Of a stretch of DNA of 64,000 nt, positions 28,142 to 59,428 are shown in pieces. This DNA comes from Bacteroidales bacterium (GTDB taxonomy: Bacteria; Bacteroidota; Bacteroidia; Bacteroidales; 4484-276). The translations under genes were made by a program, and so were the position numbers. How positions within the stretch are numbered: position 1 is the stretch's first letter; every line of letters starts with the position of its first letter. The notes beneath the pieces are model-generated. The model did no database searches, had not been told where the DNA came from, and saw nothing but the letters and a program-made list of their open reading frames with translations. The stretch is from NCBI GenBank assembly GCA_014860585.1, contig JACZJL010000171.1, positions 1-64,000 of the forward strand. Reading direction: 5' to 3'.

Positions 28142-28173
28142 ACCTGCCTGTTTCCAAAACCCAAAATAAAAAA

Positions 28174-28202
28174 ATCAGTCCCGCTAGTTTAGCAGGACTG
28201 AT
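28174..28202. terminator. Terminator after pabA
   Basis: ATCAGTCC-C-GCT and AGC-A-GGACTGAT pair with one internal mismatch around loop AGTTT. A run of A (28167-28174) precedes and CGTTTT follows, so it could act on both strands. Confidence 0.75.
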
Positions 28203-28460
28203 CGTTTTGAATGTTATGACTTAATTGTTATCCGGTGCTTTTTCGCTGTTCTACAGGCTAGCAGGCGTTGCGATTTTTATTCCGATATCAGGAATTCGTA
28301 CAATCCTTTCTTGTACCAATTACTCACCGCAAGTGTTACAGGTATGCTTTGAACCCTTCACCCATGACAAACAATGAAAAGCGCCGGCAGGAAATTCCAC
28401 ATATAAACGTGCAGACTGTTGATGTTTCCATTTGAAGCCTGCACGTTTAACGGATGATTT
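28203..28460. other. Intergenic region with long inverted repeat
   Basis: No gene is seen between the pabA terminator and the small exported protein. AAACGTGCAG (28405-28414) and CTGCACGTTT (28439-28448) form a 10-bp stem with a 24-nt loop just after the 3' end of the minus-strand gene, probably a 3' hairpin. The rest shows no clear signal. Confidence 0.5.
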
Positions 28461-28763: not shown

Positions 28764-30968
28764 TTAACGAATCAGTAATTTGTGCGACTCAATACCCTCT
28801 GTGGTTCTAACTTTTACAATATAAACCACATTATGTCCGGGAACGGTAATCGTGGCATCTGTTGCATGAACAGGTGTACGTGTAACCAGTTGCCCGAGTG
28901 TATTGATCACCTCAACATCTAAAATCTCACTGCTTCCTAAATGCTGTATGATGATTTGGTTTTGCAAAGCATAAACCTTTGTAAGTTTTTGATCAATCAC
29001 CGGCACTGATGTAGCTCCATTGAAATGCAGGAAGAACCTGTTTCTGATCTCTCCCGGTTCAGCAATTTGTGCTACATACTGTGAAGTGGTTCTCAGATTT
29101 GTAAATTTATTGGCCAGGCGGTCTTCCAGTGTAATGACGGCAGCCGGGTCAAAATTTTCAATCAGTTGAACATCGAATGTATAATTTCCGGCAAAACCGG
29201 CGTCAACACCTAACGCAATTTCATAGGTATCGGTTTGGTTGAGCACCGGAAGTCCCTGAATTACAAAATCACCACCCTCAAGCTCACTATAAAATGCGAG
29301 TCTGGAGCTGATTTTATATTTTTCAGCATCGGTTCTGTCCATTCCCACTTCAGCTCCTTCCATAAAAGCTACAAGGATTTCGTTGTAATCTTCCTGAGGT
29401 CCTGTAACACTTAACCAAATTCTGTCACGGTCTTCCTGCTCTTTATAGAAGTATGAATCATCTGTTACGCGCATATCATTCTCAAAAGCAATTGGTATAA
29501 CAGCATTTTGATTGAACGGAGTTGATTTCACCTGTAAAATAAATCCTTGTGAAGGTGCAATAATACCTGTTGGTGCATTAGGATTGGTACCACCAACTCC
29601 TGGAGCAACTCCAACGCCGCCGGCCAGAGAATAAGTAGCGTAGTCATCACGATCGCCCTGATAATCTGCGGCTTCGTCCCAGAAATATAAACCAAACACT
29701 TCCGGATGCGCATTTAAGAAAGCATCACCATCCAGTGCTGCAGGATAAGGATTTCCGACAAAGTTAAAACCTCTCTGGTTCCAGAATGGTGAAACAGGGC
29801 CCGGTGTGTAGGTAGCTTCAAAAGGCACAGTACCAACATTCAACTCACCAACAAATTCCTTGGTGTAATCGGCATCGCTGTATGCCACTGCATAGCCTTG
29901 ACCCGGAGCCAATACTCCAACCGGAGCATTGTAATTCAGATTTATCCATTCACGTGTGGTTTCCACCCACTCGTAAAAATCGGCAAATGCCGGGTATGGT
30001 GGTGCAGGCCAAACCTGGAACAAGGAATATGGCGCCATCTCAACAGGTGAAGATACATAGTGGTATTTTCCCTGTGAAAGGAAACGCTCAACTGTTGCAG
30101 GAACATTGGCATTGTTGTGAATCAGGTAACCTGTACCGGAAGCATCTGATTTAATTCGCAATGAACCAGATGATTTGATATAAAGGTTATTAATTACAAC
30201 TTTGGTAGCTGTGGCAATTTCAGCAGCAACACCAACCAGTGCATTGTTAGCTGCTCCTGGAAGCTGATGGTAAGCCGGGTGAGTATTTGCAACAGTATTG
30301 TTCCAGTTAGCTGCAGTAGCCCAATCAGTTCCAACACCAATGTAATATCCTGCCAGTTCAAAAAGAGGGTCTACAGCATTAGTCAATGTTCTGGAGTTAA
30401 TGACACTTGAATTTGCATTTAACCTGTAGTAAAGACCACCATCTTCATAATATGGACATTCGATTACATAAACCTGATCTGCTACAAATTCCAAGTTCAG
30501 TGGAACATCTGCAAAATTATTCAGAACAGTACTATTATCTGCAATGCTTAGTCGAAGACGGAAAGTACCAATTCTCTTCCAGGTGTTATCATCAAACAAA
30601 GTAGTCTCTTCATCAAGTCCAAGTGGATCAGTGACCCACTGCAGAAGCGTTTGATTTGAAGTAAAATTCGTTGAAATAGGAATTATTCTGCTACCCGATA
30701 AATCAGAAGTGCCATTAACATAAGTCAAAAAGCCATTCCTGATTCCTCCTCCGTTCAACATTGCAGTATTAAAACTGAGTTGCCATTGAATCGCCTCAAT
30801 TGCAAAAGGTTCAACGGGATCAGATGTGTTTCTCAAACGCACATCAAATGTGAATTCTGTTTCATTTACTTGAACCACGTTGGTTAACTCCATTTCATAA
30901 GACTTTTGGGCAAATGACTGGAGACCCATGATAAGCAAAAGAAATAAGATAGTTATAATCTGTTTCAT
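28764..30968 (-). CDS. Secreted protein with cohesin-like N-terminus and T9SS-like C-terminus
   Basis: 734 residues, signal peptide 1-20. The first part (about 22-180) looks like a cohesin-type beta-sandwich: VVQVNETEFTFDVRLRN, IQWQLSFNTAMLNGG, and a rigid strand pattern. The middle (220-560) is a beta-rich domain seen in many Bacteroidetes surface proteins, with YHYVSSPVEM, GFNFVGNPYPAALDGD and PSQGFILQVKS. The last 75 residues (QLVTRTP, VVYIVKVRTTEG, SHKLLIR) resemble a T9SS type A sorting domain but lack the usual FPNP box. No catalytic residues seen. It starts 19 bp after the two-cohesin gene. Confidence 0.78.
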   Translation of the reverse strand: MKQIITILFLLLIMGLQSFAQKSYEMELTNVVQVNETEFTFDVRLRNTSDPVEPFAIEAIQWQLSFNTAMLNGGGIRNGFLTYVNGTSDLSGSRIIPISTNFTSNQTLLQWVTDPLGLDEETTLFDDNTWKRIGTFRLRLSIADNSTVLNNFADVPLNLEFVADQVYVIECPYYEDGGLYYRLNANSSVINSRTLTNAVDPLFELAGYYIGVGTDWATAANWNNTVANTHPAYHQLPGAANNALVGVAAEIATATKVVINNLYIKSSGSLRIKSDASGTGYLIHNNANVPATVERFLSQGKYHYVSSPVEMAPYSLFQVWPAPPYPAFADFYEWVETTREWINLNYNAPVGVLAPGQGYAVAYSDADYTKEFVGELNVGTVPFEATYTPGPVSPFWNQRGFNFVGNPYPAALDGDAFLNAHPEVFGLYFWDEAADYQGDRDDYATYSLAGGVGVAPGVGGTNPNAPTGIIAPSQGFILQVKSTPFNQNAVIPIAFENDMRVTDDSYFYKEQEDRDRIWLSVTGPQEDYNEILVAFMEGAEVGMDRTDAEKYKISSRLAFYSELEGGDFVIQGLPVLNQTDTYEIALGVDAGFAGNYTFDVQLIENFDPAAVITLEDRLANKFTNLRTTSQYVAQIAEPGEIRNRFFLHFNGATSVPVIDQKLTKVYALQNQIIIQHLGSSEILDVEVINTLGQLVTRTPVHATDATITVPGHNVVYIVKVRTTEGIESHKLLIR

Positions 30969-30987
30969 ATCAAAAAATTTTAAATGA

Positions 30988-32466
30988 TTACGGTGTTACT
31001 CTTATTACAAAATTCAGCAAACCAGTTTGAACCAGTGTACGATCAAGAACATTTACAGTACCATCAGCATTTGTGTCTTCAATCAGATACCCTTTTTCAA
31101 GAGCTAAAAGGGCTGATTGTACCAAAGAACGATCTGCAACATTGATAAATCCATCCTGATTTACATCGCCGGCAAAGATAGCAAAATTTCCATCAAGCAA
31201 ATCTTTTTGATTATTTCCGTAAGCTTTGGATAAGGCATCAGTGAAATCATAGGTTATAGAGCCGCCAAACAGCACTGCTGTGGCACTGACTGTTTCGAGA
31301 TGATTACGACTTTTTATGGTGATATAATACTGATCACTGAACATGGATGGAACCAATGCAAGTGCCGTCCCGTCAGTATTTAGTTCAATATCAGATTGCG
31401 ACCACACGATCGTACCGTAGTTGGAAGCATCGTGTAACTCCACCGTAATTAAATCGGCAACTGTTCCGGAATATTTATCAAACGGGCTCACGCCATCATG
31501 ATCCTGGGCTTTACGCATCAGACCTCCGCCAATGTACAACCCCTCAAGGAACACTTTAAGGTTCACTTCAGTCACGGAATTCACAAAACCATCAACCAAG
31601 CCCACGGGTACCGGGGTTGCATTGATATAATGAAGCGATGTTTCCGGAGTGAAATTAACTTCAGCAAGGCCGGTCAGAAAATCGAAATGGATCGTAATCA
31701 AATCGCCATCAAGGATAGAAAGTGCGGAGGCACTTGTCTTGATAAATGTCAATGTTCCAGCAAGCTGGTCAACACTGACAACCCATCCTGAAAACTGATT
31801 GGCTGTGTAACCTGTGTAAGTAAGCTTTTGGTTATTGAAGCTGATGCTGAGTTCAATTGAACCCACGGCAGCAGCAGACAAGCCATCGGCGACCACCGGT
31901 ACATCAACCGGATCCGGAATGACCAGGTAACCTCCCGGCGGATCAGGCAATGGAATGGAATCGGCCCCGGTTGTGAAAACTTCTGAGATGGTGAGCGTAC
32001 CGACCGGAGACAAATCCGGTGAAACACTACCATCTACATAATCACCCGGCACTACTAAAGAGGTTCCATTAGGTGTTGTAATTTCACAAAAGTCAGTTAA
32101 AAACTCAAGGTCGGTAGTGAAGCCACCAAGGTAATCAAACTCCAGTTCAAGGAATGTACCGTTGATGTTTACCCCGCTGACACTTGTCCACACTAAAGCA
32201 AGCACTGAACTTCCGCCATAATTAGGGTTAATGGCGATATTTGACCCATTAAATGCAACTTCAAGAGGGCCGGAATAGGTCAAAACATCTCCATCATAAT
32301 CAATGCGAATAGTAACAGCGCCCACATTATTCAAACCGATCAAATCCAGATTTACGGTAACCGGACCAGGTCCGGAAACAACGTCTTCAAGAGATACAAT
32401 CGGTTGGGACATTAAAGGAATGGCAAACATGATTGCCATGAATATCTGTATTATTTTCTTCATCAT
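30988..32466 (-). CDS. Secreted protein with two cohesin-like domains and a dockerin
   Basis: 492 residues with a signal peptide (1-20). Residues 22-148 and 155-295 are cohesin-like: each starts with a PV-N-DL strand, contains an IRIDYD or LSISFNNQKLTYTG hairpin and ends in a FDYL/FDFL strand. A spacer domain (300-425) follows. The C-terminus (431-487) is a type I dockerin-like pair of Ca-binding loops, DVNQDGFINVAD (D434-D445) and DTNADGTVNVLD (D464-D475), each followed by a helix. It lacks a T9SS sorting domain, so it would remain periplasmic or be held by a cohesin partner. A protein with both partners of the interaction can in principle chain with itself or with neighbours. Confidence 0.82.
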   Translation of the reverse strand: MMKKIIQIFMAIMFAIPLMSQPIVSLEDVVSGPGPVTVNLDLIGLNNVGAVTIRIDYDGDVLTYSGPLEVAFNGSNIAINPNYGGSSVLALVWTSVSGVNINGTFLELEFDYLGGFTTDLEFLTDFCEITTPNGTSLVVPGDYVDGSVSPDLSPVGTLTISEVFTTGADSIPLPDPPGGYLVIPDPVDVPVVADGLSAAAVGSIELSISFNNQKLTYTGYTANQFSGWVVSVDQLAGTLTFIKTSASALSILDGDLITIHFDFLTGLAEVNFTPETSLHYINATPVPVGLVDGFVNSVTEVNLKVFLEGLYIGGGLMRKAQDHDGVSPFDKYSGTVADLITVELHDASNYGTIVWSQSDIELNTDGTALALVPSMFSDQYYITIKSRNHLETVSATAVLFGGSITYDFTDALSKAYGNNQKDLLDGNFAIFAGDVNQDGFINVADRSLVQSALLALEKGYLIEDTNADGTVNVLDRTLVQTGLLNFVIRVTP

Positions 32467-32522
32467 ATTGTTATGTTTTTACGTTTACTAATCTTGTTTC
32501 ATACATATCATCTTGTTGTTGG

Positions 32523-33557
32523 TTATTTTATCAACACCTTAATCGTCTCAACAGTTCGGTTCTCACTGATCATTTGCAAAAAATAAATTCCGGTATCCAG
32601 GCTTCCAGTACTTATCATTCCAGTGCTATGCAAGGGATGCTCTGAATAAACAACTTCTCCAACAAGATTCACCAGTTGCAAGTCAAAACCTGGTTCCGGT
32701 AAATTTACATCAAAATTCAACACCTCTTCGCAAGGATTTGGAAAAACCCTGATCGCATTTGTATTCAGTGATCCGTTGTTTACAACTGTCAGGGGAGAAA
32801 CTGTGAGTGTAACAGAATTGCTGTTCACTGCGCAATCCTCATAACTTACATTGCATCGGAAAGTATAATTGTTGAATGCCAGTGGAACCTCTTCAATAGT
32901 CAATTCGTGTGTGTTTACTCCAGTGTAATTAGCAGTGTTCTGGAGATCAATCCATACACCATTCGCATAATGTTGCCATTGAAAATCAGGTCCGCCGTAA
33001 AGCATATTTATTACAAACTGCGCCTGTTCACCTTCGGTTACGGTTACCGAAACCGGTTGTTCCGAAATCTGAAGTACAGAAACCAGCAGGCCATTCTGAT
33101 AAACAACATTCGCGATTACAGAACCTGATGAGTTGGCTACTTCGCATTGATCAGTAAAAACAAGCGATGCATTGCCTTCATAATAATCCAACTTAAGGTC
33201 GAATAATTTGCCTTCAGCTATATTCAATGCCGAAAGGCTCGACCATGTAATGGCAATTCTTGATGTTTGATCAATAAAGTTGGATAAAGGTGCTCCTCCC
33301 AGCTGAACATGAGGATTTTCTATTGAAACGAATTCCACAAGTAATGTATCGATAGAAATGAAAAATGTAAAAGCAGCAACATCATTAAAATTGGATACAT
33401 TCACAGGCAACAGGACACTACTGTTTTCACAACGGGGTTGGGCGCCGATGGAGACAGTGTGCTGGCCAAAAACTGACCAACAACCGAACATCAGCAGCAG
33501 ACCCAGTATAAAAACCGGATGGCCATTTACCTGTATGTGAAATCCTTTTCTCATCAA
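32523..33557 (-). CDS. T9SS protein with cohesin-like and Ig-like domains
   Basis: 344 residues. A signal segment (about 15-31) precedes a cohesin-like domain (33-160: TVSIGAQPRCENSSVLLPVNVSN, AFTFFISIDTLLVEFVSI, FDLKLDYYEG). Next is an Ig-like domain (163-253) with a Cys pair (FRCNVSYEDCA). Residues 268-344 form a clear T9SS type A sorting domain (VFPNPCEEVLNFDVN, LVNLVGEVVYSE, LDTGIYFLQM). It should be displayed on the surface. It lies 56 bp upstream of the two-cohesin gene on the same strand and is separated from the giant gene by a terminator hairpin. Confidence 0.82.
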   Translation of the reverse strand: MMRKGFHIQVNGHPVFILGLLLMFGCWSVFGQHTVSIGAQPRCENSSVLLPVNVSNFNDVAAFTFFISIDTLLVEFVSIENPHVQLGGAPLSNFIDQTSRIAITWSSLSALNIAEGKLFDLKLDYYEGNASLVFTDQCEVANSSGSVIANVVYQNGLLVSVLQISEQPVSVTVTEGEQAQFVINMLYGGPDFQWQHYANGVWIDLQNTANYTGVNTHELTIEEVPLAFNNYTFRCNVSYEDCAVNSNSVTLTVSPLTVVNNGSLNTNAIRVFPNPCEEVLNFDVNLPEPGFDLQLVNLVGEVVYSEHPLHSTGMISTGSLDTGIYFLQMISENRTVETIKVLIK

Positions 33558-33598
33558 TTATTTGTGATTTAAACCAAAAACAAAAGTTCAAATAGAAT

Positions 33599-33625
33599 AA
33601 GGTGTGCCGTAATCCGGCACACCTT
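33599..33625 (-). terminator. Hairpin after the 1731-residue protein gene
   Basis: AAGGTGTGCCG (33599-33609) and CGGCACACCTT (33615-33625) form an 11-bp perfect stem with a 5-nt loop, 14 bp past the stop codon at 33639. The following minus-strand sequence is only moderately U-rich. It suggests that the giant gene is largely monocistronic. Confidence 0.75.
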
Positions 33626-33638
33626 AATTATATTTGTC

Positions 33639-36600
33639 TTATCTGATCAAGATCATGCTGTTGTTGGATGAGTAGTCGTTACTTTCACCCTTAACTTCCA
33701 GCTTGTAGTAGTAAACGCCTGGGCCGTTGAGGTCGCTGCTTTGTACAGTTACCTTGTGTGTGCCTGCGCTTTGGTATTCGGTGACAAGTGTCTTCACAAC
33801 CTGACCCATCTTGTTGTAGATCACCACACTTACTGCTCCGGATTCGGGCAGGTCATAAGTAATGGTAGTTGCATCCCTGAATGGGTTGGGGTTGTTAGTT
33901 ACTGCAAATGTATTGATTACAGGAGCTTCAGTGCTGAGGCTGCTGGCCTTTAGGTTAACACCTTCAACAACCTGTGCACTCCTGTCAGCCAGTTCGGTGA
34001 AGCCGGTGAGTTCGAACAGACGGGCATCTGCAGAAATATCACCAATTACACGAACGGTAATCATAGCAATTGCATCTCCTTCGTTGAAGTTGATCCCTTC
34101 AAGTGCTGACCATGCGATATTGACAATGCCCTGTTCGTGATTGAAATAAGCATTGTCTTCACCATAGTTGGTTGCTATCACCTCGATCAGGTCGTTGCGA
34201 TAGGTCATACCGATACTAATAGCGCCAAGGTCTGCAAAATGATCAACAACGATCGGGATGGTTACTTCCTCACCCTTGCTTACCGCAGTTACACCTTCGT
34301 AAATGAGATCCAGTTTTGGTTCAGCTTTGAAACCGCCATACACCGGAACATATGAACTGTTGATATCACTAACAGCATCATAGTAGATGTTCAGATAGCG
34401 GTAACCCAAATCAGGATAGTTTGCCAAAGCATCCAGATCATTGAAATAATAATGCTGTCCGGCAAATGAAGAAGCTATATATGAATACATATTAAGTTTA
34501 TCGAGAGCAGTCGGGATTTGAACACCAAAAGTAGTGTTAGTGTTGAAATCGTCCTCATCCACGAAAATACCGGCCACCTCAAAGTTGGGTTTGTCGTTCG
34601 GATAAACCTGGATCAGGCCAATTGCACGGCGCTTTGCAAGCAATGCATCGAGACCTGTTAAGGTTCCATTGTAATTGGCATCGGCTACATTTTCGTTGTA
34701 TGGAGCGTAAGGATAATCAATGTGTGCCAGTCCGGGGAATCCGCTGATGTCGTTGCCAATGACCATGTGTTCAACCAACATTGCATCCGTAGCATTAACT
34801 CCATCCCAGTTGTTGTAAGTCCAGTTATTGGTCAAAAATCCATCTGAATAAATTCCACCACCATTATTCCATTCTTCATAATACCCACCATCCCAAACAA
34901 GTACTCTGTAATCAGCATTAGGATCAAGGTTATAATCGAAAGCAAAGGCTGCTTCATAATACTCATCGGTAAGCAGGGGATGTAGGTCTTCACCATAATA
35001 CTCCTCTACCTTTTTCACCTCTACGGCACCATAATAAGGATCATCAGATTCTAAATCAAAGTCCGCACCAACCAGCGAAACGTAGAAGAAATCAGGAACA
35101 TTCAATCCATAGTAATTAGTCATAAACGGCGAAGGCATCGGTGTTTCACCGGCATTGTAGTATTTCACCTGGCCTACGAGGAGGTTGGGGAGAATTTCAA
35201 TTGTGATTGTATAAGTATCGGAGCACAAACCATTGTCAACAGTTACGCTCAATTCAACTTCATCGTAAGGCAGCGGATCGTCCCAGATAAAGGTGAGGCT
35301 GACAATTTGTGCTGACGGATCGCTGATTGATACTGCCATAGGATCAACAGCACTCCAGGAATAGGTTGGGAAACCAGGCTCACTAAGATTAGGTGCAGCC
35401 ACCGAATAGGTTTCAACAGCTCCGCTGAACACACTGGTAACGCCGCCAATTCCTTCAACTATTGTGTAGAAGGTAATTGTAACTTCATCAACGTCTTCAC
35501 AGATGCCATTGGTTTCTGTCCAATAGAATGTATAAACACCACCAACATCCACTGTGACTTTTGTTTTGGGATCAGTGTCATCTTCGAAAACAACATTACC
35601 GGGAGCGGGTGTTTTAGTTGTCCATTTCCCTGTACTTCCAACTACAGAATATGTTGCATCCAGATTGTATTCAAGGATATTGAAGCATACATAATCATCT
35701 AAACCTGCATCAGCATTTGGATCGTCGAGGAAAGTGATCACTACCGATACATCAGAAAGACATCCCTCAGTTGATTCAACTGTGCCGGTAAATGTGTAAG
35801 TCCCCGGAGGATAATCACCATTAATCATGAGATATTCCGGATATTGTAAACCATCATAGAGGAAATAATCTGATCCGGTTTTCTCCAGGAAGAAGATTGG
35901 TTCATCACCATTGATGATATCCCACATCGCCAATTCCCATCCTTGAGCATTATTTACACCATCAACCCCTTTTGCAAGCCACCATGCCCAATAAGCTGGG
36001 TCGGTAACTTCTTCGATAAAGAATGGATTGGGGTAATTTGGTTCAAGGTCAACAGCAACAGTCAATGAAGCAACACCTATATAATAATAATCAACATTGT
36101 CATTAATACATGCGGTGTAACCATTGGCTAAATCGCCATCAATTGGCATAGGATCGCTCAGGTCATCATATTCGGAATAGAACAATTCGATTGCTGAAAC
36201 AACTGGCTCGGGATGAACTATAATTGAAAAATTATAATCCTCCAGAGATGTTGAATGACATCCTTTATCATCATATAAATCAAGGATGCTGAACAAATAG
36301 GTGCCGGTTGGGAAATTAATCAAATCATAGGTCCACGTACCTGAAACACCTGACATTATATCTGTCTGTGTTCCGAAAGGTGAAGGCCCTTCAATTTGCC
36401 ATTCAACAGTCCAGGGAGCCGTACCTATAACGCCTTCAATCGAAATAGTAACTTCATCATCATAGCAAAATTCAATGACAGGGTTACCCGTAACCGGTTC
36501 GTCATTCACCTCCACCAGAGCTGTTGGTTCAGGATTTATCGTAATAGTAAAGGTGTAACTGTCCAGTGAGGTTTGTGAGGCTGCACACATGTTATTATCC

Positions 36601-38834
36601 ACAAGGCTGGTTACTGTGAAAGTATACAGACCAACGGGGAAATCCAAAAGGTTGTAAGTAAAGGTTTCGGAGACACCGGTCATATAATCGTTTTGGGTCG
36701 GAAAACCAGAAGGTCCTTCAATCTGCCATCCTAACGTCCAGTCGGGTTCACCAACTACACCGGCTACATAAATATCAATAACTTCATTGTAACAGAATTC
36801 GAAGTCTTGTCCGGATGCAGAAGTTCCGTTTACTTCGATTTCAGCGGTAGGTTCGGGGTGAACAATCAGACTCATCCAGTAATCGGCCAAAGTTGTAGCG
36901 GATGTTACACAATTATTTCCATCTGTTATAGAGGTAATTGTCAGGCTATAGGTTCCAACGCCCAGCGGGAACATATCCGCCTCGAAATATTCTATATCAC
37001 CATCACCATCCACAGAGCCTGTACCATAGAAAGGATAGCCAACTCCGCCACCAATTTTATCAATAGTGAAAGTGAAATCCCAGTTAGGTGCACCAACTGT
37101 GCCTTCGTAGCTGAGCTCTATTGTTTCATCATAGCAAAATTCAAATGATTGTCCAAAAGCCAAGGCTCCGTTAACAAAGAAGTCCATTTCCGGTTCCGGA
37201 TGAATGGTCAGAAATGCCAGCCAGGGATCAAGGGTGGTTGGAGAGCAACCGTTATTATCAACCAATGAATTAAGGGTTATGGTATAGGTTCCTACGGCAA
37301 AAGTACCTGGCCCAAAAATAACATCACCAAGGTCACCCGTAAAGGTGCCAGTGACAGGAGTTACCCCATCGTCATACTGATATTCCAGTGTAAACGGAGG
37401 CTCTCCGGCCCAAACATGCGATAGTGTAACATCAAATACATAATCGTAGCAATATTCAAATGAAGACCCGGTTTCGGCAAGAACACCATCAAATGAGAAA
37501 CCAATAGCAGGCTCAGGATTTACAATAACTTGAAATGAATCGCCTGCGTAAGCATATTCTGTACCTTCAAGATAGGCAAAATTGGTTACCTCAACATTAT
37601 AAGTCCCTGGTTGCACATCATCAATCTCAAATCTCCAGGTATCAGTAGCCACATGGCCCTGCAAAGTAGTCTGAACACCAGTGTTGGGGTTAGTAGGGTT
37701 TAGGTCATTTGCAAGCATTGCAGAGAGATAGAGTGTGCTGTATTCGGCAGACAATGTATAGCTTCCAGCAGGATTGTTATTGTAGAAAATATCAACCACT
37801 GTACCAGCATTAAGAGGCACATCAACTTCAATAACAGCATCATTTTTTACCCGACTATCCACGTTGTAAATAGTAGGATAACCAATTTCATATTCGAAGG
37901 AGTAAGGAACATTCCAGCATGTTTCAAAATCTGTTATGTCAACAACAGTAGCATCAGCGAATGTTAGTGTGTATGTTCCAACTTCAAAATCCGTGTAGCA
38001 AACATCAAAATCAACATATCCAAGGACAGTGATCGTAAAAGGGATGGTAACAGGATTATCAATTCCTGCAAAAGTAAATTCAAAACTATCTGTCAACCCT
38101 TCTTTTGTGATAAGGTTGGGTGGTGCTATTGAAAGTAAGTCATAGAGAAAGATTTCAGTTGCCCCACCAATATCTGTCGGAGCACTGTTGAGAAGGTTCG
38201 TTGTTCCGCCATCAAGAGAAACTTTAATAAGTTCAGCACCTGCAGGAAATCCGCCGGGGATATCCATTCTCAGATCAGCCACCACCGGTCCGATAACCGG
38301 ATCGTTAAAAATGCTGTAATTAACATTGTCTGGAATATCATAAGTCACATCAAAAGGTAAGATAACTGGGGTTTTGGTGACTGATTCGATTTCGTAATCA
38401 GTAATGGTGATATTAGGATCACGTACTTCGAATAAGGCAACAACAGAAATCGCAGTACCGTTAGCACCCATAACCAGATCAATAAAGTCATTGGTTGATT
38501 GGTGAATGAAAAGAGGATCTCCCGGGGGAATTGGTGGTCCAAAATATGGATTGGAATAATCCCACAATGTTACCTGGTGACTCGTGATCTGACTGGGAAT
38601 TACTGTTCTCAGTCTCATCAACTGACCTGCAGCAAGTGTTAAAGTTGAATTTTCAACAGGTCCCTGAATGGTTGTAACTGTTGTTCCGGAACCACGGTCA
38701 AAAACTTCTACACGCCCATGACACTCAATTGTCAGTCTGAGCTGTGTTTGGGCAAAAGCCGAACTCAGCCCTACAAGCAGCATTACCATCAGCAACGCCA
38801 CTTTTTTGAAATGATTTTCGTAAAATCTGCTCAT
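33639..38834 (-). CDS. Giant T9SS surface protein with tandem repeats, dockerin-like and cohesin-like domains
   Basis: 1731 residues, signal peptide 1-29. Four tandem repeats of about 110 residues (near 439-548, 548-658, 660-768, 769-877) share an HPEP/NPEP start, an F-E-(Y/F)-CY motif and a closing NN(G/M/N)C or KGC, so each has a likely disulfide. PKD/SprB-like segments follow (1040-1215). About 1335-1410 holds two dockerin-like loops (NNWDGVNATDAMLVEHMVIG and DANYNGTLTGLDALLAKRRA). A cohesin-like domain (1505-1632) and a T9SS type A sorting domain (1648-1731: NNPNPFRDATTITYDL, IYNKMGQVVKTL) end the chain. No enzyme domain is seen. It is probably an adhesive or scaffolding surface protein. 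Confidence 0.85.
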   Translation of the reverse strand: MSRFYENHFKKVALLMVMLLVGLSSAFAQTQLRLTIECHGRVEVFDRGSGTTVTTIQGPVENSTLTLAAGQLMRLRTVIPSQITSHQVTLWDYSNPYFGPPIPPGDPLFIHQSTNDFIDLVMGANGTAISVVALFEVRDPNITITDYEIESVTKTPVILPFDVTYDIPDNVNYSIFNDPVIGPVVADLRMDIPGGFPAGAELIKVSLDGGTTNLLNSAPTDIGGATEIFLYDLLSIAPPNLITKEGLTDSFEFTFAGIDNPVTIPFTITVLGYVDFDVCYTDFEVGTYTLTFADATVVDITDFETCWNVPYSFEYEIGYPTIYNVDSRVKNDAVIEVDVPLNAGTVVDIFYNNNPAGSYTLSAEYSTLYLSAMLANDLNPTNPNTGVQTTLQGHVATDTWRFEIDDVQPGTYNVEVTNFAYLEGTEYAYAGDSFQVIVNPEPAIGFSFDGVLAETGSSFEYCYDYVFDVTLSHVWAGEPPFTLEYQYDDGVTPVTGTFTGDLGDVIFGPGTFAVGTYTITLNSLVDNNGCSPTTLDPWLAFLTIHPEPEMDFFVNGALAFGQSFEFCYDETIELSYEGTVGAPNWDFTFTIDKIGGGVGYPFYGTGSVDGDGDIEYFEADMFPLGVGTYSLTITSITDGNNCVTSATTLADYWMSLIVHPEPTAEIEVNGTSASGQDFEFCYNEVIDIYVAGVVGEPDWTLGWQIEGPSGFPTQNDYMTGVSETFTYNLLDFPVGLYTFTVTSLVDNNMCAASQTSLDSYTFTITINPEPTALVEVNDEPVTGNPVIEFCYDDEVTISIEGVIGTAPWTVEWQIEGPSPFGTQTDIMSGVSGTWTYDLINFPTGTYLFSILDLYDDKGCHSTSLEDYNFSIIVHPEPVVSAIELFYSEYDDLSDPMPIDGDLANGYTACINDNVDYYYIGVASLTVAVDLEPNYPNPFFIEEVTDPAYWAWWLAKGVDGVNNAQGWELAMWDIINGDEPIFFLEKTGSDYFLYDGLQYPEYLMINGDYPPGTYTFTGTVESTEGCLSDVSVVITFLDDPNADAGLDDYVCFNILEYNLDATYSVVGSTGKWTTKTPAPGNVVFEDDTDPKTKVTVDVGGVYTFYWTETNGICEDVDEVTITFYTIVEGIGGVTSVFSGAVETYSVAAPNLSEPGFPTYSWSAVDPMAVSISDPSAQIVSLTFIWDDPLPYDEVELSVTVDNGLCSDTYTITIEILPNLLVGQVKYYNAGETPMPSPFMTNYYGLNVPDFFYVSLVGADFDLESDDPYYGAVEVKKVEEYYGEDLHPLLTDEYYEAAFAFDYNLDPNADYRVLVWDGGYYEEWNNGGGIYSDGFLTNNWTYNNWDGVNATDAMLVEHMVIGNDISGFPGLAHIDYPYAPYNENVADANYNGTLTGLDALLAKRRAIGLIQVYPNDKPNFEVAGIFVDEDDFNTNTTFGVQIPTALDKLNMYSYIASSFAGQHYYFNDLDALANYPDLGYRYLNIYYDAVSDINSSYVPVYGGFKAEPKLDLIYEGVTAVSKGEEVTIPIVVDHFADLGAISIGMTYRNDLIEVIATNYGEDNAYFNHEQGIVNIAWSALEGINFNEGDAIAMITVRVIGDISADARLFELTGFTELADRSAQVVEGVNLKASSLSTEAPVINTFAVTNNPNPFRDATTITYDLPESGAVSVVIYNKMGQVVKTLVTEYQSAGTHKVTVQSSDLNGPGVYYYKLEVKGESNDYSSNNSMILIR

Positions 38835-39747: not shown

Positions 39748-40584
39748 TTACAACGACAACCCCATTCCCAAACCGAAACGGAATAACAAAGTGATTATGA
39801 TAGCAAGCAGGATGGGAATCTTTTTTAGCCTGAAACTGTCGCGGTGGCGGGTGAACTGAATGGACTGGAGTTTCTCCATCCGGAAAAATACCGAGATTAC
39901 GATGATTACCAAGCTCAACAACACAAGGGTATCGATGTATTCAAATTTGGCCTGGTAAGGTATCTTGAGGATAAAAATGAGGATGTTTCCGATAACGAAC
40001 GGAATAATCAATTGAGCATAAAAGAAAGGCTCGACCTGCGACATGCTCGCTCTTCGCAGGTAGATATTCAAGGAGATCAGGATGTTTTTGGCTGAAAACT
40101 GGCCGATCACAAACAGCATGATCAGGCCAAAGATACCGATGATTACCCTGAACACCATGGGGATATTCATGTAATTGAAAAAAGCGCCGGGCATGTAGTT
40201 GATAAAAGCCCCAAATACGATGTCACCAAAAAAGAGGGTGTAGGCAATCAGGTAAGCCCACAGCAGGAAAAGTTTGCCATGGCCGGAGCCTTTCCTCACG
40301 TTCTGGTACATCACCTGGAACAACACGCCGAAAAGCAAAGCGAGCAGTACACCTATAAAGAAAATGAGTACAACCGGTTCGAGGGTCCAGGTAAAATCTT
40401 TACGGTCGAGATCAAATCCGTAATGGTACAACGTTCCGTTAAGTCCATAGAAAACCTTGGCCATGACCATCGAAGTAAAATTGATCACCGTAATCACAAA
40501 AATATAGGCCAGCATGAAGTAGGCCGTTGAATTGATGGTGATAATCAGGTTTTTGTTTGGTGTAAGTTGTGAAGATTCAGACAT
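39748..40584 (-). CDS. Multi-pass inner-membrane protein, function unknown
   Basis: 278 residues from the ATG at 40584, with about seven hydrophobic helices (starting near TAYFMLAYIFVITVI, VVLIFFIGVLLALLFG, LFLLWAYLIAYTLFF, VFRVIIGIFGLIMLF, YAQLIIPFVIGNILIFI, LVLLSLVIIVISVFF, and a last one at ILLAIIITLLFRFG). I do not recognise the family. Charged loops are short. The upstream TTG at 40620 falls inside a -7 box, so the later ATG is used. It is divergent from the GSIII gene. Confidence 0.75.
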   Translation of the reverse strand: MSESSQLTPNKNLIITINSTAYFMLAYIFVITVINFTSMVMAKVFYGLNGTLYHYGFDLDRKDFTWTLEPVVLIFFIGVLLALLFGVLFQVMYQNVRKGSGHGKLFLLWAYLIAYTLFFGDIVFGAFINYMPGAFFNYMNIPMVFRVIIGIFGLIMLFVIGQFSAKNILISLNIYLRRASMSQVEPFFYAQLIIPFVIGNILIFILKIPYQAKFEYIDTLVLLSLVIIVISVFFRMEKLQSIQFTRHRDSFRLKKIPILLAIIITLLFRFGLGMGLSL

Positions 40585-40617
40585 TGGGTATTGGGTTTTT
40601 AATGAAAAATCTGAGGA

Positions 40618-40649
40618 CAAATGTAGGAGATATTTTTTAAACCCCTCAA
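40618..40649 (-). promoter_or_regulatory. Promoter for the membrane-protein gene
   Basis: Minus-strand TTG (40647-40649), 21-bp spacer and TACATTTG (40618-40625) fit the Bacteroidetes consensus, placing the start about 25-30 nt before the ATG at 40584. Confidence 0.55.
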
Positions 40650-47277: not shown

Positions 47278-50200
47278 TTATAGTTTGATGAACCTCCGGT
47301 AGATTACGCCATCCAGAGATTCAATTTTCACGAAATAGATCCCTTTTTCCAAGCTGATCAGAGGAATCTGAATTTTTTGTCCCTCCACCTCCAGATTTCT
47401 GATTACTTTACCATCTGCAGAAAGTAACCGGAGTAAAAATTTTCCATCTTCAAACGGACAATCAATCATGATGTGATCCTTAGCCGGATTTGGGTAAATC
47501 TTTATTAAGTTTGTATGGCTTTCAGGATCAGAAGTTGACAGCCCATTCATAAAACCTTTGATACGCGACATTCCTTTTGGGTAAAAAGTACCCTCAGCAT
47601 TTGGAAATAATGAATCGTACAATGCAATAAGGGACTCTTCATTGTTATTCAACGAATTGTAAAACCTAAAGTTTACGGGTTCACCTTCCTCTGCCCCGTC
47701 CTTTCCCACGGTCATTTCATCATCCCCAAAAACAGTCAGCAGCAAATTTTCAGATTCCTGTTCATCGACCTGAACCGCGCCAACACATTGCCCAAACTGA
47801 TCAAATGCCCCGATAAAACCAGGTCCAGGTGTATTTAATGCTTGGCTGTCCAGGCTAAACAAATGAAATTCTCCGGTTGGTTTGAACCTCCAGGGTATTT
47901 CCGGATCCATCGCCAATATTTTCTGGCCGGAAAAAAAGAATCCTTCATACGCGGGAAAGCTAATTGTCAATGGATTCAGAAAATATCCCTGGTAACCAAA
48001 GCCAGGGTTCAGTATGGTTAATGTGTAGATTCCTCCCATCGGCCAAAAGATTTTCCCTTCGCTTAAATCAAAAAGATACAACAGGTCCTGAAGAGGATTA
48101 TCGAAAAGATCCGTGATAGCAGCATTCCGGTTACTCAGGTAGGGGATAATATGGTATCCTGATGAGAATGATACCGAGTTACTTTCGGGCAAGTCACCAC
48201 AAAAAGACAGTTGGTCGTCGGCCAGCATTTTAATTTTGTAGCCTGACAGGCTGTTCCAGTTACCAAGTGTGTTGGAGTTGATCGGAGGCGGGGCGTACAT
48301 ACCGTTCATGTTCTGGATCACCACAAGATTATCGGCAATATCTGTAAGAAGCAACTCCACATCTGGTTCGTCTGGAATTAAAAAACCCGAAATAACTGAC
48401 CAGCCTTCAGGCAGGAAAATGGTTTGAACGCTGCAAATCACTTCAATTTCTTCTGATTCCGTTGTCAGATTTGCTACATCAGTGGCCCTGGCTTTAATCG
48501 TGTTCATCCCCGGGTTGAGTGAGATCGTTGACGACCAGTTACCCATCCCTTCAGCGATAAGCCAATCACCATTATTTACTGATATTTCGACCACAAAAAG
48601 ATCGTTATCCGGATCGGAGGCAACTCCTGAGGTTAAAAGCGCGCAATCACAAATTTTTTCCTGGTGATATGGATAAAGAATTTCAATGGTCGGATAGCGA
48701 CGGATGGTAAGGTTCAGCGTATCGGTTACCATCATGTTCAATGGAGGCAAACCAGTAACAAAAAAGATGAGATTTACACTTCCATTTGCAATATCCAACT
48801 GGCCGGGGAAATAGGTCGGATTAAAAGTGGTTTCATCAACCAAAGTGCCATCCCCGTCTGACATCCATAGTAGTGAAGTAAAATTTAGAGCGGCAGCGCC
48901 GGCAACAGCAAAGTTTTCACCTTCTGTCAAAGTTGCATTTTCACCGGCATCTGCAAAAGGTGGAGGAGGCATGGGCATTTGCTTTGCATAAGTTTTTATG
49001 CAAAGGTCATAGTTCAATCCTGTTCCATGACCTGCCTGGTACCAGGCTGCAGGCCAAATTTCGGGGTTGGGGGCTACCCAGTATTTCCCGGTTTCAATTT
49101 GCGGCATTGAGTAGGTAGGGATCGTATCCTCAATGGGAATTGGCCATTTGTTGTCAGCATTTTTTGAATCATATTTAATCTGAACGTAAAATGATTTGCC
49201 TTCAGGGATGCAAATGGTGGAATCCAGATCGAAGGTATAATATCCGGGTAAATCGCAAATCACTTCATCCATTGAAAAGAGCAGTCCGGATAGTTGATCG
49301 TTAAATTCTTCATAGATGTTAATTCCGACACCTGAACCGGCATAAAGCACAAAAGTCCCGACTTTGGTAATTTCTGTCAATCCCTCTGCACCTTCGAATT
49401 TCACCAGTCCGTATCCGGTTTCGTTTCCAAAACCTACTCCCCAGTAGCCTCCAATTTCATCGTACTGATAAAGGTACACATCCGGTTCGTGCTCCATCAC
49501 ATCAGGCCAGTAGCCGTTATATTGCAAGAATTGAGCATCAAAAAAAGAAACATAGTAATAGCCGGCCTCCCCCCAGTTGGGGCCATAAGTGTTTCTCACG
49601 ATCCATGCGCCTGTTCCGCCGGCCGTTTGCAGGGTATCGTTCCACCCTACGATCACCCCGGCATGATTGACTGCATGTGTTCCGCCATAGAAATAAGTAT
49701 TCGTTACTGTGTTAAAGTAAGTGGCGTTGTAGTACATCAACGTCCAGACCGGGCCAAATTCCAATAGGGTTTGCTTTGTGAAATCCCTGTCAAGAGGCGG
49801 AGTATAGCGCGATTGATTGATATAATAAAGCGGCGTGAGGTCATCCGGGCAGTTATCAGGGCCTGTGGTTCCACCCGGGAAGGGGTCCTGACTTTCAGCA
49901 TAAGGTCCTGAGCGTCGGGCAAAATAGGAGGTGGCCATCCAGTGGTTACCATTCGTACTGCGTTCGGGTAAGTATTTATGGCAGTATTTCAGGTTGTTAT
50001 CCGAAAGATCGTAAGTACCCATGCCCAGCATCAGCCAGCGGGATTCCACCGCACCCATCACCGAATAGGCCCAGCACCCGCCGGAAGATTGCGTCTTCAC
50101 CGATGTGAGCCAGGGTGTCTGTCGCATGTCATACACCAATGGCAAATCGCGCGATGGTTGAGTTTTGATATTAATCCATGGGTGATGTGCCGGTTTGACG

Positions 50201-50352
50201 GGAGGTAAAAGCACCCCGTTTCGCTGCATTTCCTCCAACTCTTCATCAGCGATTTTGTAATCTACATCCACAGGTGCTTTTTCAGGCCTAGGTTGACCTG
50301 AAAGAAATAGGTTGAGAAAAAACAGTACGGAAACAAGGATATATTTTTTCAT
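47278..50352 (-). CDS. T9SS-exported papain-family (C1) cysteine protease
   Basis: 1024 residues with a signal peptide (1-20). The papain catalytic residues are visible: Q in VKTQSSGGCWAYS, C93 nucleophile, H230 (THAVNHAGVIVGW) and N254 (IVRNTYGPNWGEAGYY). Then comes a lectin-like beta-domain (270-460), Ig-type segments (470-660) and other beta-rich parts. The last 80 residues are a T9SS type A sorting domain (IYPNPAKDHIMIDC, LLSADGKVIRNLE, LEKGIYFVKI). It should degrade protein at the cell surface. The start ATG overlaps the stop of the FG-GAP gene (ATGA), so the two are translationally coupled. Confidence 0.9.
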   Translation of the reverse strand: MKKYILVSVLFFLNLFLSGQPRPEKAPVDVDYKIADEELEEMQRNGVLLPPVKPAHHPWINIKTQPSRDLPLVYDMRQTPWLTSVKTQSSGGCWAYSVMGAVESRWLMLGMGTYDLSDNNLKYCHKYLPERSTNGNHWMATSYFARRSGPYAESQDPFPGGTTGPDNCPDDLTPLYYINQSRYTPPLDRDFTKQTLLEFGPVWTLMYYNATYFNTVTNTYFYGGTHAVNHAGVIVGWNDTLQTAGGTGAWIVRNTYGPNWGEAGYYYVSFFDAQFLQYNGYWPDVMEHEPDVYLYQYDEIGGYWGVGFGNETGYGLVKFEGAEGLTEITKVGTFVLYAGSGVGINIYEEFNDQLSGLLFSMDEVICDLPGYYTFDLDSTICIPEGKSFYVQIKYDSKNADNKWPIPIEDTIPTYSMPQIETGKYWVAPNPEIWPAAWYQAGHGTGLNYDLCIKTYAKQMPMPPPPFADAGENATLTEGENFAVAGAAALNFTSLLWMSDGDGTLVDETTFNPTYFPGQLDIANGSVNLIFFVTGLPPLNMMVTDTLNLTIRRYPTIEILYPYHQEKICDCALLTSGVASDPDNDLFVVEISVNNGDWLIAEGMGNWSSTISLNPGMNTIKARATDVANLTTESEEIEVICSVQTIFLPEGWSVISGFLIPDEPDVELLLTDIADNLVVIQNMNGMYAPPPINSNTLGNWNSLSGYKIKMLADDQLSFCGDLPESNSVSFSSGYHIIPYLSNRNAAITDLFDNPLQDLLYLFDLSEGKIFWPMGGIYTLTILNPGFGYQGYFLNPLTISFPAYEGFFFSGQKILAMDPEIPWRFKPTGEFHLFSLDSQALNTPGPGFIGAFDQFGQCVGAVQVDEQESENLLLTVFGDDEMTVGKDGAEEGEPVNFRFYNSLNNNEESLIALYDSLFPNAEGTFYPKGMSRIKGFMNGLSTSDPESHTNLIKIYPNPAKDHIMIDCPFEDGKFLLRLLSADGKVIRNLEVEGQKIQIPLISLEKGIYFVKIESLDGVIYRRFIKL

Positions 50353-52682
50353 AGCTTAACGAATTTGAGAACCTGCTGAAAAACCTGATTCGCATTTTTA
50401 TCAAACTGGATTTGAAGAAAGTAAATGCCTGCAGGTATAGTACTTGCATCAATAGTAGGGGCTTTATCGGATGAATGCTGAAGGCTTGATATTGCCCTTC
50501 CGGTCAAATCAAATATGGTCAGCCTGATCGGTTGCAGTGTAAAACCGGGCTTTTCCACCATCTCAACCATAAAAGTTTCAGTTACCGGATTCGGGAAAAT
50601 CCTGATGTCAAACCCTGCAGTTTCCGGTTTCAAAATGCCAGCCGGTGGCGGTAAAGTTCCCTGGAAAAAAGATAAGCCACCGGAATAATTTCCAACAATC
50701 ATGTCAAGATAATCATCAGAATTCAAATTTGCAACAGCAACCGTACTTCGCAACCCTTCATCAATCCAGAGGTAGTTCTTCATCACCAGATCAAACTGGC
50801 CATCAAGATTGTTGTCAATCCCGGTGTAGTAATGGATCTCGCCAAACTCTGATCCGGCAAAGAGGCGGGTGTTTCCGTCCTTATCCCTGAAGAAGTGAGG
50901 AATGCAATGACCGTAAATGGAAAGATCCGGGTTACGGACATCCACTCTGCCAAGGCTGTCGGTTATAAAAGTAAAAACCGGATTTTCAGCCGTTCCGGTA
51001 TTTTGAAAAAAAGTTATGGTTCCGTTACGCTTTCCAACAACCAAATCGGGCAAGCCATTACCCGTCAGATCAAAAAGTTGGGGAGCACTGTAGGAGTCAA
51101 CATAAATGGATTGGTAATTTTCCTCTGCAAGGACAAAATCAGCAGGCTGTCCGGAAGAGGCAATGTTTTCGAAAAAAAGGAGGTTACCCCAGGCATTGCC
51201 GACCAGCAGGTCTTCATCGCCATCACCATCAAGGTCAGCTATTGCGGGAACCAACGCAAAGGGGGACTCTCCTTTTGGAAAATAGCCGGGTAAGTTGGCA
51301 AAATTTTTATCGATCAGTTTAAATTTGGGTGATCCGGCAGTGCCAACATTTTGCAGTAAGGCCAATTGACCCCGGTACAGGCAATTCAGATTCAGACCGG
51401 CGCCGTAAAAACAGCTATCGAGGTAACCAAAATTTCCAACCAAAATATCCGCCAACCCATCCCTGTTGTAATCAAAGAAAACAGGTGCAGCGCCAGCTCC
51501 GAAATCAAGCATTTCATCCTGAAGAAAACACTTAGTCCGCAACCGGAACTCCGGTGCATTGGTTTGGCTTACATTTTCATAATACCAAATATTATCAAGG
51601 TTTTCGGATTTTATCAAACTGGGATCGAATACCGAAGCGATAAGATCCTTTTTGCCATTGTTGTTTACATCTATGAAAGCCATCAACGGGAATGACATCA
51701 GGTCAACGGGCACATCATAAGCCGGCCAGTTGAATGTATATACTCCAATTAAAGCCTCATCGGGAGTTCCCCAGTTGGTAAGCAAAGCAGGCGCCGAAAA
51801 GTCCACATCGCCTAGCAGAAGGTCATCCAGTCCGTCACCGTTTTCATCAAAAACCAGAAAGGTTGATCCGGTATGCCGGAACTCATTTCTTTGCAACCCG
51901 CTGCCAGAAATTATGGCCTGCATGTCTTTTCCTTTTACCTCCCGCCGAAATGCAAAACACGTATCAAGATACAACTGGTTGGATTCATCACTTTCGGCAA
52001 ATCGTCCCCAGCAATTTTCTGTCTTGCGGTAAATCAATGAATCAGGCACTCCGAAGTGTTCCATGGATTCGTTGGTGTGCAGCTCAACAAAAGAACCCAG
52101 TCCCCAGAAAGTTAAAATATCCAGGTCGCCGTCGTCATCAATATCAACAATTGCAGGGTAATCCACATAGGTGGTCAGGATATTCACATAACCTGATCCC
52201 TGAAAGGAAGTGAGATAAGGCGATACAACAAGTTCAAACTGGTCTGTTGCTTCCGGGCCATTGTTCCTGTAAACCTTAATGCCGGCAAACCCTTTTGAAT
52301 AGGTAAAGATGTCATTCAGACCGTCCATGTTATAATCGGTAAAAATTACCCAATCGTCAAAATGAGGTAAATTTCCGCTTAGTCCCGGGTTGAACTGATA
52401 GCTGATTTGGCCGGCAACTCCGAGGTTCTTGTAGGTTAAAATGCGATTGCCATATCTATCGAAAACCACAAGGTCATTGATTCCGTCATAGTCAAGATCG
52501 GCTTCTCCAAACTGAACTGCATACAAACCTCCATTCCAGGCATTTGGGATAATATTCCCTTGCTCGTCGAATACCTGGGTCAAAAAACTCTTTTCAAAAC
52601 CAAACGGAAGAGTGAATTGAGAAAATAGGTTATGAACAATCGAAAACGAGCAAATAAAAAGGAGTAACAGTTTGGTTTTCAT
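50349..52682 (-). CDS. T9SS-exported FG-GAP/VCBS repeat protein
   Basis: 777 residues with a signal peptide (1-21). Many FG-GAP/VCBS-type beta-propeller repeats with Ca-binding DxDxDG loops are visible (DLDYDGINDLVVFD, DYNMDGLNDIFTYS, DIDDDGDLDILTFW, DENGDGLDDLLLGD, DLDGDGDEDLLVGN), at least seven. The C-terminus is a T9SS type A sorting domain (IFPNPVTETFMVEM, IFDLTGRAISSL, IPAGIYFLQI). No catalytic motif. Probably a surface beta-propeller of unknown ligand. It is cotranscribed with the cysteine protease through a stop/start overlap. The promoter overlaps that of the divergent neighbour. Confidence 0.88.
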   Translation of the reverse strand: MKTKLLLLFICSFSIVHNLFSQFTLPFGFEKSFLTQVFDEQGNIIPNAWNGGLYAVQFGEADLDYDGINDLVVFDRYGNRILTYKNLGVAGQISYQFNPGLSGNLPHFDDWVIFTDYNMDGLNDIFTYSKGFAGIKVYRNNGPEATDQFELVVSPYLTSFQGSGYVNILTTYVDYPAIVDIDDDGDLDILTFWGLGSFVELHTNESMEHFGVPDSLIYRKTENCWGRFAESDESNQLYLDTCFAFRREVKGKDMQAIISGSGLQRNEFRHTGSTFLVFDENGDGLDDLLLGDVDFSAPALLTNWGTPDEALIGVYTFNWPAYDVPVDLMSFPLMAFIDVNNNGKKDLIASVFDPSLIKSENLDNIWYYENVSQTNAPEFRLRTKCFLQDEMLDFGAGAAPVFFDYNRDGLADILVGNFGYLDSCFYGAGLNLNCLYRGQLALLQNVGTAGSPKFKLIDKNFANLPGYFPKGESPFALVPAIADLDGDGDEDLLVGNAWGNLLFFENIASSGQPADFVLAEENYQSIYVDSYSAPQLFDLTGNGLPDLVVGKRNGTITFFQNTGTAENPVFTFITDSLGRVDVRNPDLSIYGHCIPHFFRDKDGNTRLFAGSEFGEIHYYTGIDNNLDGQFDLVMKNYLWIDEGLRSTVAVANLNSDDYLDMIVGNYSGGLSFFQGTLPPPAGILKPETAGFDIRIFPNPVTETFMVEMVEKPGFTLQPIRLTIFDLTGRAISSLQHSSDKAPTIDASTIPAGIYFLQIQFDKNANQVFQQVLKFVKL

Positions 52683-52724
52683 CCGCTATAGGATTAAGAA
52701 GTAATTCAAATGGTTTAAAAGCGT

Positions 52725-52742
52725 TACTTTTGAGCAAATTTA
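52725..52742. promoter_or_regulatory. Overlapping divergent -7 elements
   Basis: TACTTTTG (52725-52732, + strand, for the gene at 52760) and TAAATTTG on the minus strand (52735-52742, for the gene ending its start at 52682) are 2 bp apart. The + element also overlaps the TTG codon at 52730, supporting the later ATG. Neither has a convincing -33 box. Confidence 0.5.
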
Positions 52743-52759
52743 CACGAAAAATCATTACC

Positions 52760-54181: not shown

Positions 54182-54312
54182 CCAGCCGATCGATTTGAAA
54201 ACCGCGATATTCAGCATGTTCCAAAATGAATTTGAAATTCTGGTTGCTTTGATTTAAAGTTCAGGACATCATGCAGGATTTACTCATAAAAATATTTTCT
54301 ACCCATAATTTC

Positions 54313-54341
54313 TTGCCTCAATCAAATTTCGCTTATTTTTG
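54313..54341 (+). promoter_or_regulatory. Promoter for the SusC-SusD-PNGase operon
   Basis: TTG (54313-54315), 18-bp spacer and TATTTTTG (54334-54341) fit the Bacteroidetes promoter. Start of transcription would be about 30 nt before the SusC ATG. No sigma/anti-sigma gene lies next to it. Confidence 0.6.
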
Positions 54342-54379
54342 GATGATGAAAAAATAAGTCATCAGCCAATCCATAGCGT

Positions 54380-57700: not shown

Positions 57701-57720
57701 CTATTTAACCAGATGATAAA

Positions 57721-59370: not shown

Positions 59371-59428
59371 TTTTTTAACAAAGCAAATGAATTCATTCAA
59401 TCAGTATTAACCATTAATTTCAAATTCT

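Follow-up and report, generated by a model that had tools for sequence, protein, structure and literature searches.

A conserved four-gene cluster in a Bacteroidales genome probably encodes a non-enzymatic cohesin-dockerin surface assembly tied to type IX secretion

The window, the whole stretch of 64,000 nucleotides that was analysed, belongs to a 4.7-Mb Bacteroidales draft genome that is 96% complete. Four consecutive open reading frames occupy positions 28764-38834, all on the minus strand, and encode in the order of transcription proteins of 1731, 344, 492 and 734 amino acids (Table 1). The genes are separated by gaps of 81, 56 and 19 bases, and a signal peptide-like stretch is found at the N-terminus of all four proteins. 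They probably form one transcription unit. The hairpin between the giant gene and the 344-residue gene could reduce expression of the genes behind it or protect the transcript. The sorting tail of type IX secretion system (T9SS) cargo (TIGR04183) scores over the cut-off in the 1731-, 344- and 734-residue proteins and not in the 492-residue protein. The host genome encodes about 60 T9SS tails and the type IX translocon gene sprA (SprA profile match, 2584 bits). Pfam and NCBIfam-type domain searches of the four proteins detected no glycoside hydrolase, in agreement with the preliminary description, and domain searches detected no cellulose-binding module among them, the scaffoldin-like 492-residue protein included. 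The membrane protein encoded upstream was assigned to no Pfam or NCBIfam family; homologues with 35% identity are encoded inside the equivalent cohesin clusters of three other genomes. Other T9SS proteins are encoded nearby, at 47278-61933 (a papain-like peptidase with a lectin-like domain, an FG-GAP protein and a PNGase F-like protein), together with a SusC/SusD pair.

Table 1 Features of the gene block and its flanks, listed in the direction of transcription; positions are those of the window.
Feature	Position	Strand	Description
Multi-pass membrane protein, 290 aa, upstream	39748..40620	-	Possible cluster member
Giant protein, 1731 aa	33639..38834	-	Signal peptide, repeated Ig/PKD-like domains, C-terminal cassette (X-like module, dockerin-like, cohesin-like, T9SS tail)
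Two-loop dockerin-like module of giant	34533..34838	-	Loop 1 degenerate, loop 2 canonical DANYNGTLTGLD
Cohesin-like domain of giant	33930..34301	-	Cohesin HMM 4.2e-6
T9SS type A sorting tail of giant	33684..33890	-	TIGR04183 1.9e-7, over cut-off
12-bp hairpin with T-rich tail, between giant and 344-aa gene	33598..33626	-	Perfect hairpin; possible attenuator
344-aa protein	32523..33557	-	Signal peptide, cohesin, Ig-like domain, T9SS tail
Cohesin of 344-aa protein	33087..33479	-	Profile match; family profile matches solved cohesins 2vn5, 1g1k
492-aa scaffoldin-like protein	30988..32466	-	Signal peptide, two cohesins, X-dockerin, no T9SS tail
Cohesin 1 of 492-aa protein	32014..32412	-	Profile match; AlphaFold2 model resembles solved cohesins, TM 0.79
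Cohesin 2 of 492-aa protein	31639..31920	-	Pfam Cohesin and profile match
C-terminal X-dockerin of 492-aa protein, second ('HRNHL') type	30991..31572	-	Dockerin_1 over cut-off
734-aa protein with T9SS tail	28764..30968	-	TIGR04183 5.2e-6
14-bp terminator-like hairpin behind cluster	28173..28203	-	Strong; after last gene

The Coh-Coh-X-Doc architecture of the 492-residue protein is that of a non-catalytic scaffoldin with tandem cohesins, of which the orthologues have three. Pfam Cohesin matches it over two stretches at 1.3e-9 and Dockerin_1 at 3e-6, both over the cut-off, and Pfam and TIGR04183 searches detected no T9SS tail, which agrees with the two cohesins, two-loop dockerin and missing sorting signal of the preliminary description. 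The family profile matches solved cohesins and the ScaH dockerin. Two near-symmetric canonical calcium loops, DVNQDGFINVAD and DTNADGTVNVLD, make up the dockerin and are identical at 13 of 22 positions; in type I dockerins, near-symmetric loops permit two binding modes (cf. 2vn5/2vn6). The AlphaFold2 model of cohesin 1 has a pLDDT of ~80; among single domains of the PDB, scaffoldin cohesins match it best, with an rmsd of 2.1 Å. The dockerin region was modelled with low confidence.

The cassette at the C-terminus of the giant opens with a module that bears a weak resemblance to the X modules of cellulosomal X-dockerins. The dockerin that follows is divergent, with a sub-threshold Pfam score (0.021), and is matched at 1.6e-10 by a profile built from shorter relatives (A9), whose 20 members all match Pfam Dockerin_1 and which matches the solved dockerin 1ohz at 3.6e-7. 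The profile of the cohesin family matches the Clostridium perfringens NagJ cohesin at 0.004 and also the Archaeoglobus fulgidus cohesin, a Foldseek search with the domain returned cohesins, and the cohesin of a paralogue on contig C32 of the same genome passes Pfam Cohesin. The cohesin, dockerin-like loops and sorting domain first noticed in the giant are thus borne out. In the AlphaFold2 model of the cassette, the dockerin has low confidence and a contact with the cohesin cannot be read. Structure prediction of the domains, advised at the outset, therefore upheld cohesin 1 of the 492-residue protein and, by Foldseek, the cohesin of the giant, but neither dockerin region.

The cohesin of the 344-residue protein is not matched by the Pfam cohesin model; its family profile matches the solved cohesins 1g1k and 2vn5 at 5e-4, and a pooled cohesin profile gives 5.5e-6. 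The preliminary description placed cohesin-like domains in all four open reading frames, which holds for the 1731-, 344- and 492-residue proteins but not for the 734-residue protein. A cohesin was rejected in the latter, the N-terminal region of which has no cohesin profile match (2.5% probability in one comparison, nothing in another). Its orthologues in other genomes do have a cohesin (98.9% probability).

The named relatives of the window genes come from Bacteroidales metagenome-assembled genomes (MAGs). Comparison of gene order among fourteen named loci with the dockerin-cohesin-tail cassette shows that the four-gene order of the window, on one strand, is repeated in six further MAGs of Bacteroidales and partially at two additional loci. 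At the six matching loci the giant is followed by a ~348-residue Coh-Ig-tail protein, a 567-676-residue protein with three cohesins and an X-dockerin but no tail, and a 640-676-residue protein with a cohesin and a tail. In most matching genomes the tail-less protein consists of three cohesins, a CarboxypepD_reg-like X module and a dockerin, which is the order of clostridial scaffoldins. A cohesin gene lies directly after the cassette gene, on the same strand, in 25 of 34 cases and at 0 of 21 control loci with a T9SS tail (Fisher 2e-8); the 34 cassette genes come from nearly as many genomes, the flanks were 1.5 kb long, and the controls were drawn from the family of the window, not from the same genomes. 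The cassette, typically on T9SS-tailed giants, occurs in 101 of 392 genomes of the order, about a quarter, and both modules are present in nearly all listed matches. Pfam cohesins occur in 82 of the 101, but this co-occurrence was not counted as support, since the cassette brings a cohesin of its own. Two genomes (G098 and G193) each yielded more than 100 first-look cassette candidates, on open reading frames of up to 5600 residues. The host genome encodes two further cassette giants, on contigs C59 and C32, and the C59 giant is followed by a 1190-residue protein with four cohesins.

The 194-residue C-terminus of the 492-residue protein represents a second X-dockerin family. Relatives of this module occur in five more host proteins, on open reading frames of 650 to 3334 residues and all without a T9SS tail; the module is terminal in four of them, and a Fib_succ_major domain comes after it in the fifth. 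These proteins contain SprB, DUF11, DUF7507 or HYR repeats, a Fib_succ_major domain, or no known domain, and a domain search detected no enzyme domain on them. In one of them the SprB repeat, which is that of the gliding adhesin SprB, occurs 16 times. The search of the genome for other dockerin proteins that had been suggested with the preliminary description yielded these five and the two additional giants. The dockerin carriers found in the host by profile searches, which also supplied the cohesin inventory, accordingly comprise three giants, the 492-residue protein and the five repeat or no-known-domain proteins, none with an enzyme domain in a genome that, at 96% completeness, may hide a missed gene. 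Pfam detects only 2 of 14 members of the second family, most of which terminate in two canonical calcium loops. A profile of the dockerin part alone (A14) has 22 PDB matches, to dockerin chains or dockerin-bearing proteins, the best at 1.8e-4. Profile-profile comparison (hhalign) found no homology between the two dockerin types; both are nonetheless kept as dockerins because A14 matches dockerins in the PDB.

The second X-dockerin and the T9SS tail are mutually exclusive: among 34 such proteins sampled outside the host genome none had a detected tail, while all five positive controls did. A Sec signal peptide is visible in 24 of the 34, and a lipobox in none. In related genomes the module is carried by M14, S8, C1, C10 and C25 peptidases, GH57 and a GDSL lipase. 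Pfam cohesins occur in 42 of 53 genomes with this X-dockerin versus 67 of 339 others, as raw genome counts that ignore kinship. The 11 of 53 without a Pfam cohesin match count against the assembly proposed below, less heavily because the Pfam model misses divergent cohesins, as with the 344-residue protein. A cassette is found no more than 15 kb away from 15 of 110 copies of the module versus 2.8 expected, and some of these copies are cluster-type scaffold genes. At the scaffold position itself the other dockerin type is present in most relatives and the orthologue in genome G004 has that of the window; the plug of the adaptor has therefore been exchanged in evolution.

The modules and their order, the conservation of the cluster, the exclusion between X-dockerin and tail, and the clustering and co-occurrence with cohesins are consistent with a non-enzymatic cohesin-dockerin surface assembly, in which T9SS-anchored cohesins and a Coh-Coh-X-Doc adaptor hold tail-less dockerin proteins. 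We consider this reading of the block probable. The giant and the 344-residue cohesin-Ig protein would be exported by the type IX route, become fixed to the cell surface and present their cohesins there. The dockerin of the 492-residue protein is predicted to plug into one of these surface cohesins, presumably in a calcium-dependent manner, and its two cohesins would then offer sockets to further dockerins, so that the adaptor multiplies sockets. In the host the load would be repeat-rich or otherwise non-enzymatic tail-less proteins with the same kind of X-dockerin, and in related genomes often peptidases with it. With a non-enzymatic load, the host assembly is more suggestive of a matrix, sheath or adhesion function than of digestion. 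The degenerate first calcium loop of the giant and the low AlphaFold2 confidence for both dockerin regions count against the model. The preliminary description had also proposed a surface assembly other than a classic cellulosome, in which a surface cohesin could anchor the tail-less protein; this idea fits all the findings, namely the conserved gene order, the cohesin genes after cassette genes, the tail-less dockerin proteins elsewhere and sprA, but the 734-residue protein gave no cohesin match and the dockerins were not confidently modelled. A bolder extension, possible though doubtful, is that the unnamed X-dockerin replaces the T9SS tail: Sec-exported peptidases, glycosidases and giant repeat proteins with neither tail nor lipobox would be taken to the surface and held there by T9SS-tailed cohesins, perhaps already from the periplasm, and one tailed cohesin protein would export or display many cargoes.

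The union of dockerin and cohesin in one unit, seen in nearly all listed cassette matches from the 101 genomes, some with more than 100 candidates, could also mean that the giants polymerise or close on themselves, the two modules binding head to tail or within the chain and the downstream cohesin proteins serving as decoration or caps. This is unlikely: 25 of 34 cassette genes are followed at once by a cohesin gene of its own, which would be superfluous for a self-sufficient pair. The AlphaFold2 model of the cassette contains neither a confident dockerin nor a readable dockerin-cohesin contact. The X-dockerin might instead be an export ticket, by which tail-less proteins bind T9SS-tailed cohesin proteins in the periplasm and are carried along by the type IX translocon. 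The tail is missing from all 34 sampled proteins, their visible N-termini are Sec signal peptides without a lipobox, and among the carriers are peptidases of the gingipain, C10 and subtilase types, which usually have T9SS tails in Bacteroidota. However, such proteins could equally be periplasmic or take another route, and giants of 2000-3300 residues would be heavy passengers, which leaves this explanation rather unlikely.

It is improbable that the domains are generic β-sandwiches with relic EF-hand loops that act as spacers and bind nothing specifically. The proteins concerned are indeed rich in Ig, PKD and FN3-like domains, the N-terminal domain of the 734-residue protein is an example of one that cannot be recognised as a cohesin, and the first dockerin loop of the giant is degenerate, but the profile matches are specific to solved cohesins and dockerins, the calcium-loop residues are retained in both dockerin loops of the 492-residue protein, and the genes cluster and co-occur with cohesins. 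An ordinary cellulosome that recruits enzymes via dockerins encoded elsewhere in the genome is very improbable, despite the scaffoldin architecture of the 492-residue protein and the peptidases, GH57 and GDSL lipase that relatives put on the same X-dockerin: no dockerin enzyme was found in the host genome and no cellulose-binding module in the four proteins. A classic cellulosome, defined by plant-polysaccharide enzymes, was rejected for the host genome, in which no dockerin-bearing enzyme was found.

The surface assembly favoured here shares features with several known systems. Clostridial cellulosomes use the same anchoring logic, with SLH anchors. As in the clostridial cellulosome (CipA X-DocII with SdbA/OlpB type cohesins), an anchorless cohesin-cohesin-X-dockerin scaffoldin is accompanied by separate anchored cohesin proteins, and the cohesin fold and symmetric two-loop dockerin are shared, whereas here the anchor is a T9SS tail in a diderm host and neither catalytic subunits nor a cellulose-binding module were found. 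The cohesins of Archaeoglobus fulgidus (2xdh) and Clostridium perfringens NagJ (2ozn) likewise stand outside a cellulosome and are the nearest two in sequence to that of the giant, but the cohesins described here are encoded in a conserved T9SS cluster of several genes, one of them for an adaptor. Three of the four block proteins carry the tail of T9SS type A cargo (TIGR04183), unlike the 492-residue protein and the 34 sampled X-dockerin proteins, which have a dockerin in its place.

The closest report is the cellulosome-like complex of Ca. Stygibacter (Cloacimonadota), for which a T9SS-anchored scaffoldin with dockerin peptidases was proposed (PMC8542988). In both systems cohesin-bearing proteins have a type IX C-terminal domain that would attach them to their own surface, in Ca. 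Stygibacter one cohesin-rich scaffoldin, and the S8 and C25 peptidases and GH57 with dockerins there (PMC8542988) belong to the same classes as those on the second X-dockerin in related Bacteroidales. The scaffoldin of Ca. Stygibacter, from another phylum, is however a single protein of 3755 residues with carbohydrate-binding modules (CBMs) (PMC8542988), in contrast to the several short T9SS-tailed cohesin proteins found here. Further differences are the separate tail-less Coh-Coh-X-Doc adaptor, the giant that combines dockerin, cohesin and tail, and a genome in which no CBM and no dockerin enzyme were found. No prior description of the four-gene cluster, the dockerin-cohesin-tail cassette or the tail-less X-dockerin family was found in the open-licence literature. 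Dockerins and some cohesins have been reported in Bacteroidetes bins (PMC6071333), and a survey of cellulosome bacteria from 2024 makes no mention of Bacteroidota (PMC11557425). Bacteroidota are commonly called free of cohesins and dockerins, one study having found none, as in other genomes from this phylum (PMC5831590), yet roughly one in four genomes sampled from the order has the cassette. The second dockerin family, mostly missed by Pfam, occupies the position of the T9SS tail on secreted peptidases. If the dockerins bind, the type IX-dependent surface proteome would be larger than tail searches reveal, and the route and retention of tail-less surface proteins would become testable with a few recombinant domains.

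Two further cohesin genes of the host genome, at 1-2997 of locus L012 and 4743-5975 of locus L131 (contig C18), are not next to a cassette. The 411-residue protein encoded by one of them and the 1190-residue protein of C59 share an unnamed C-terminal domain (GWSxLSxxL...FPGC) in place of the T9SS tail.
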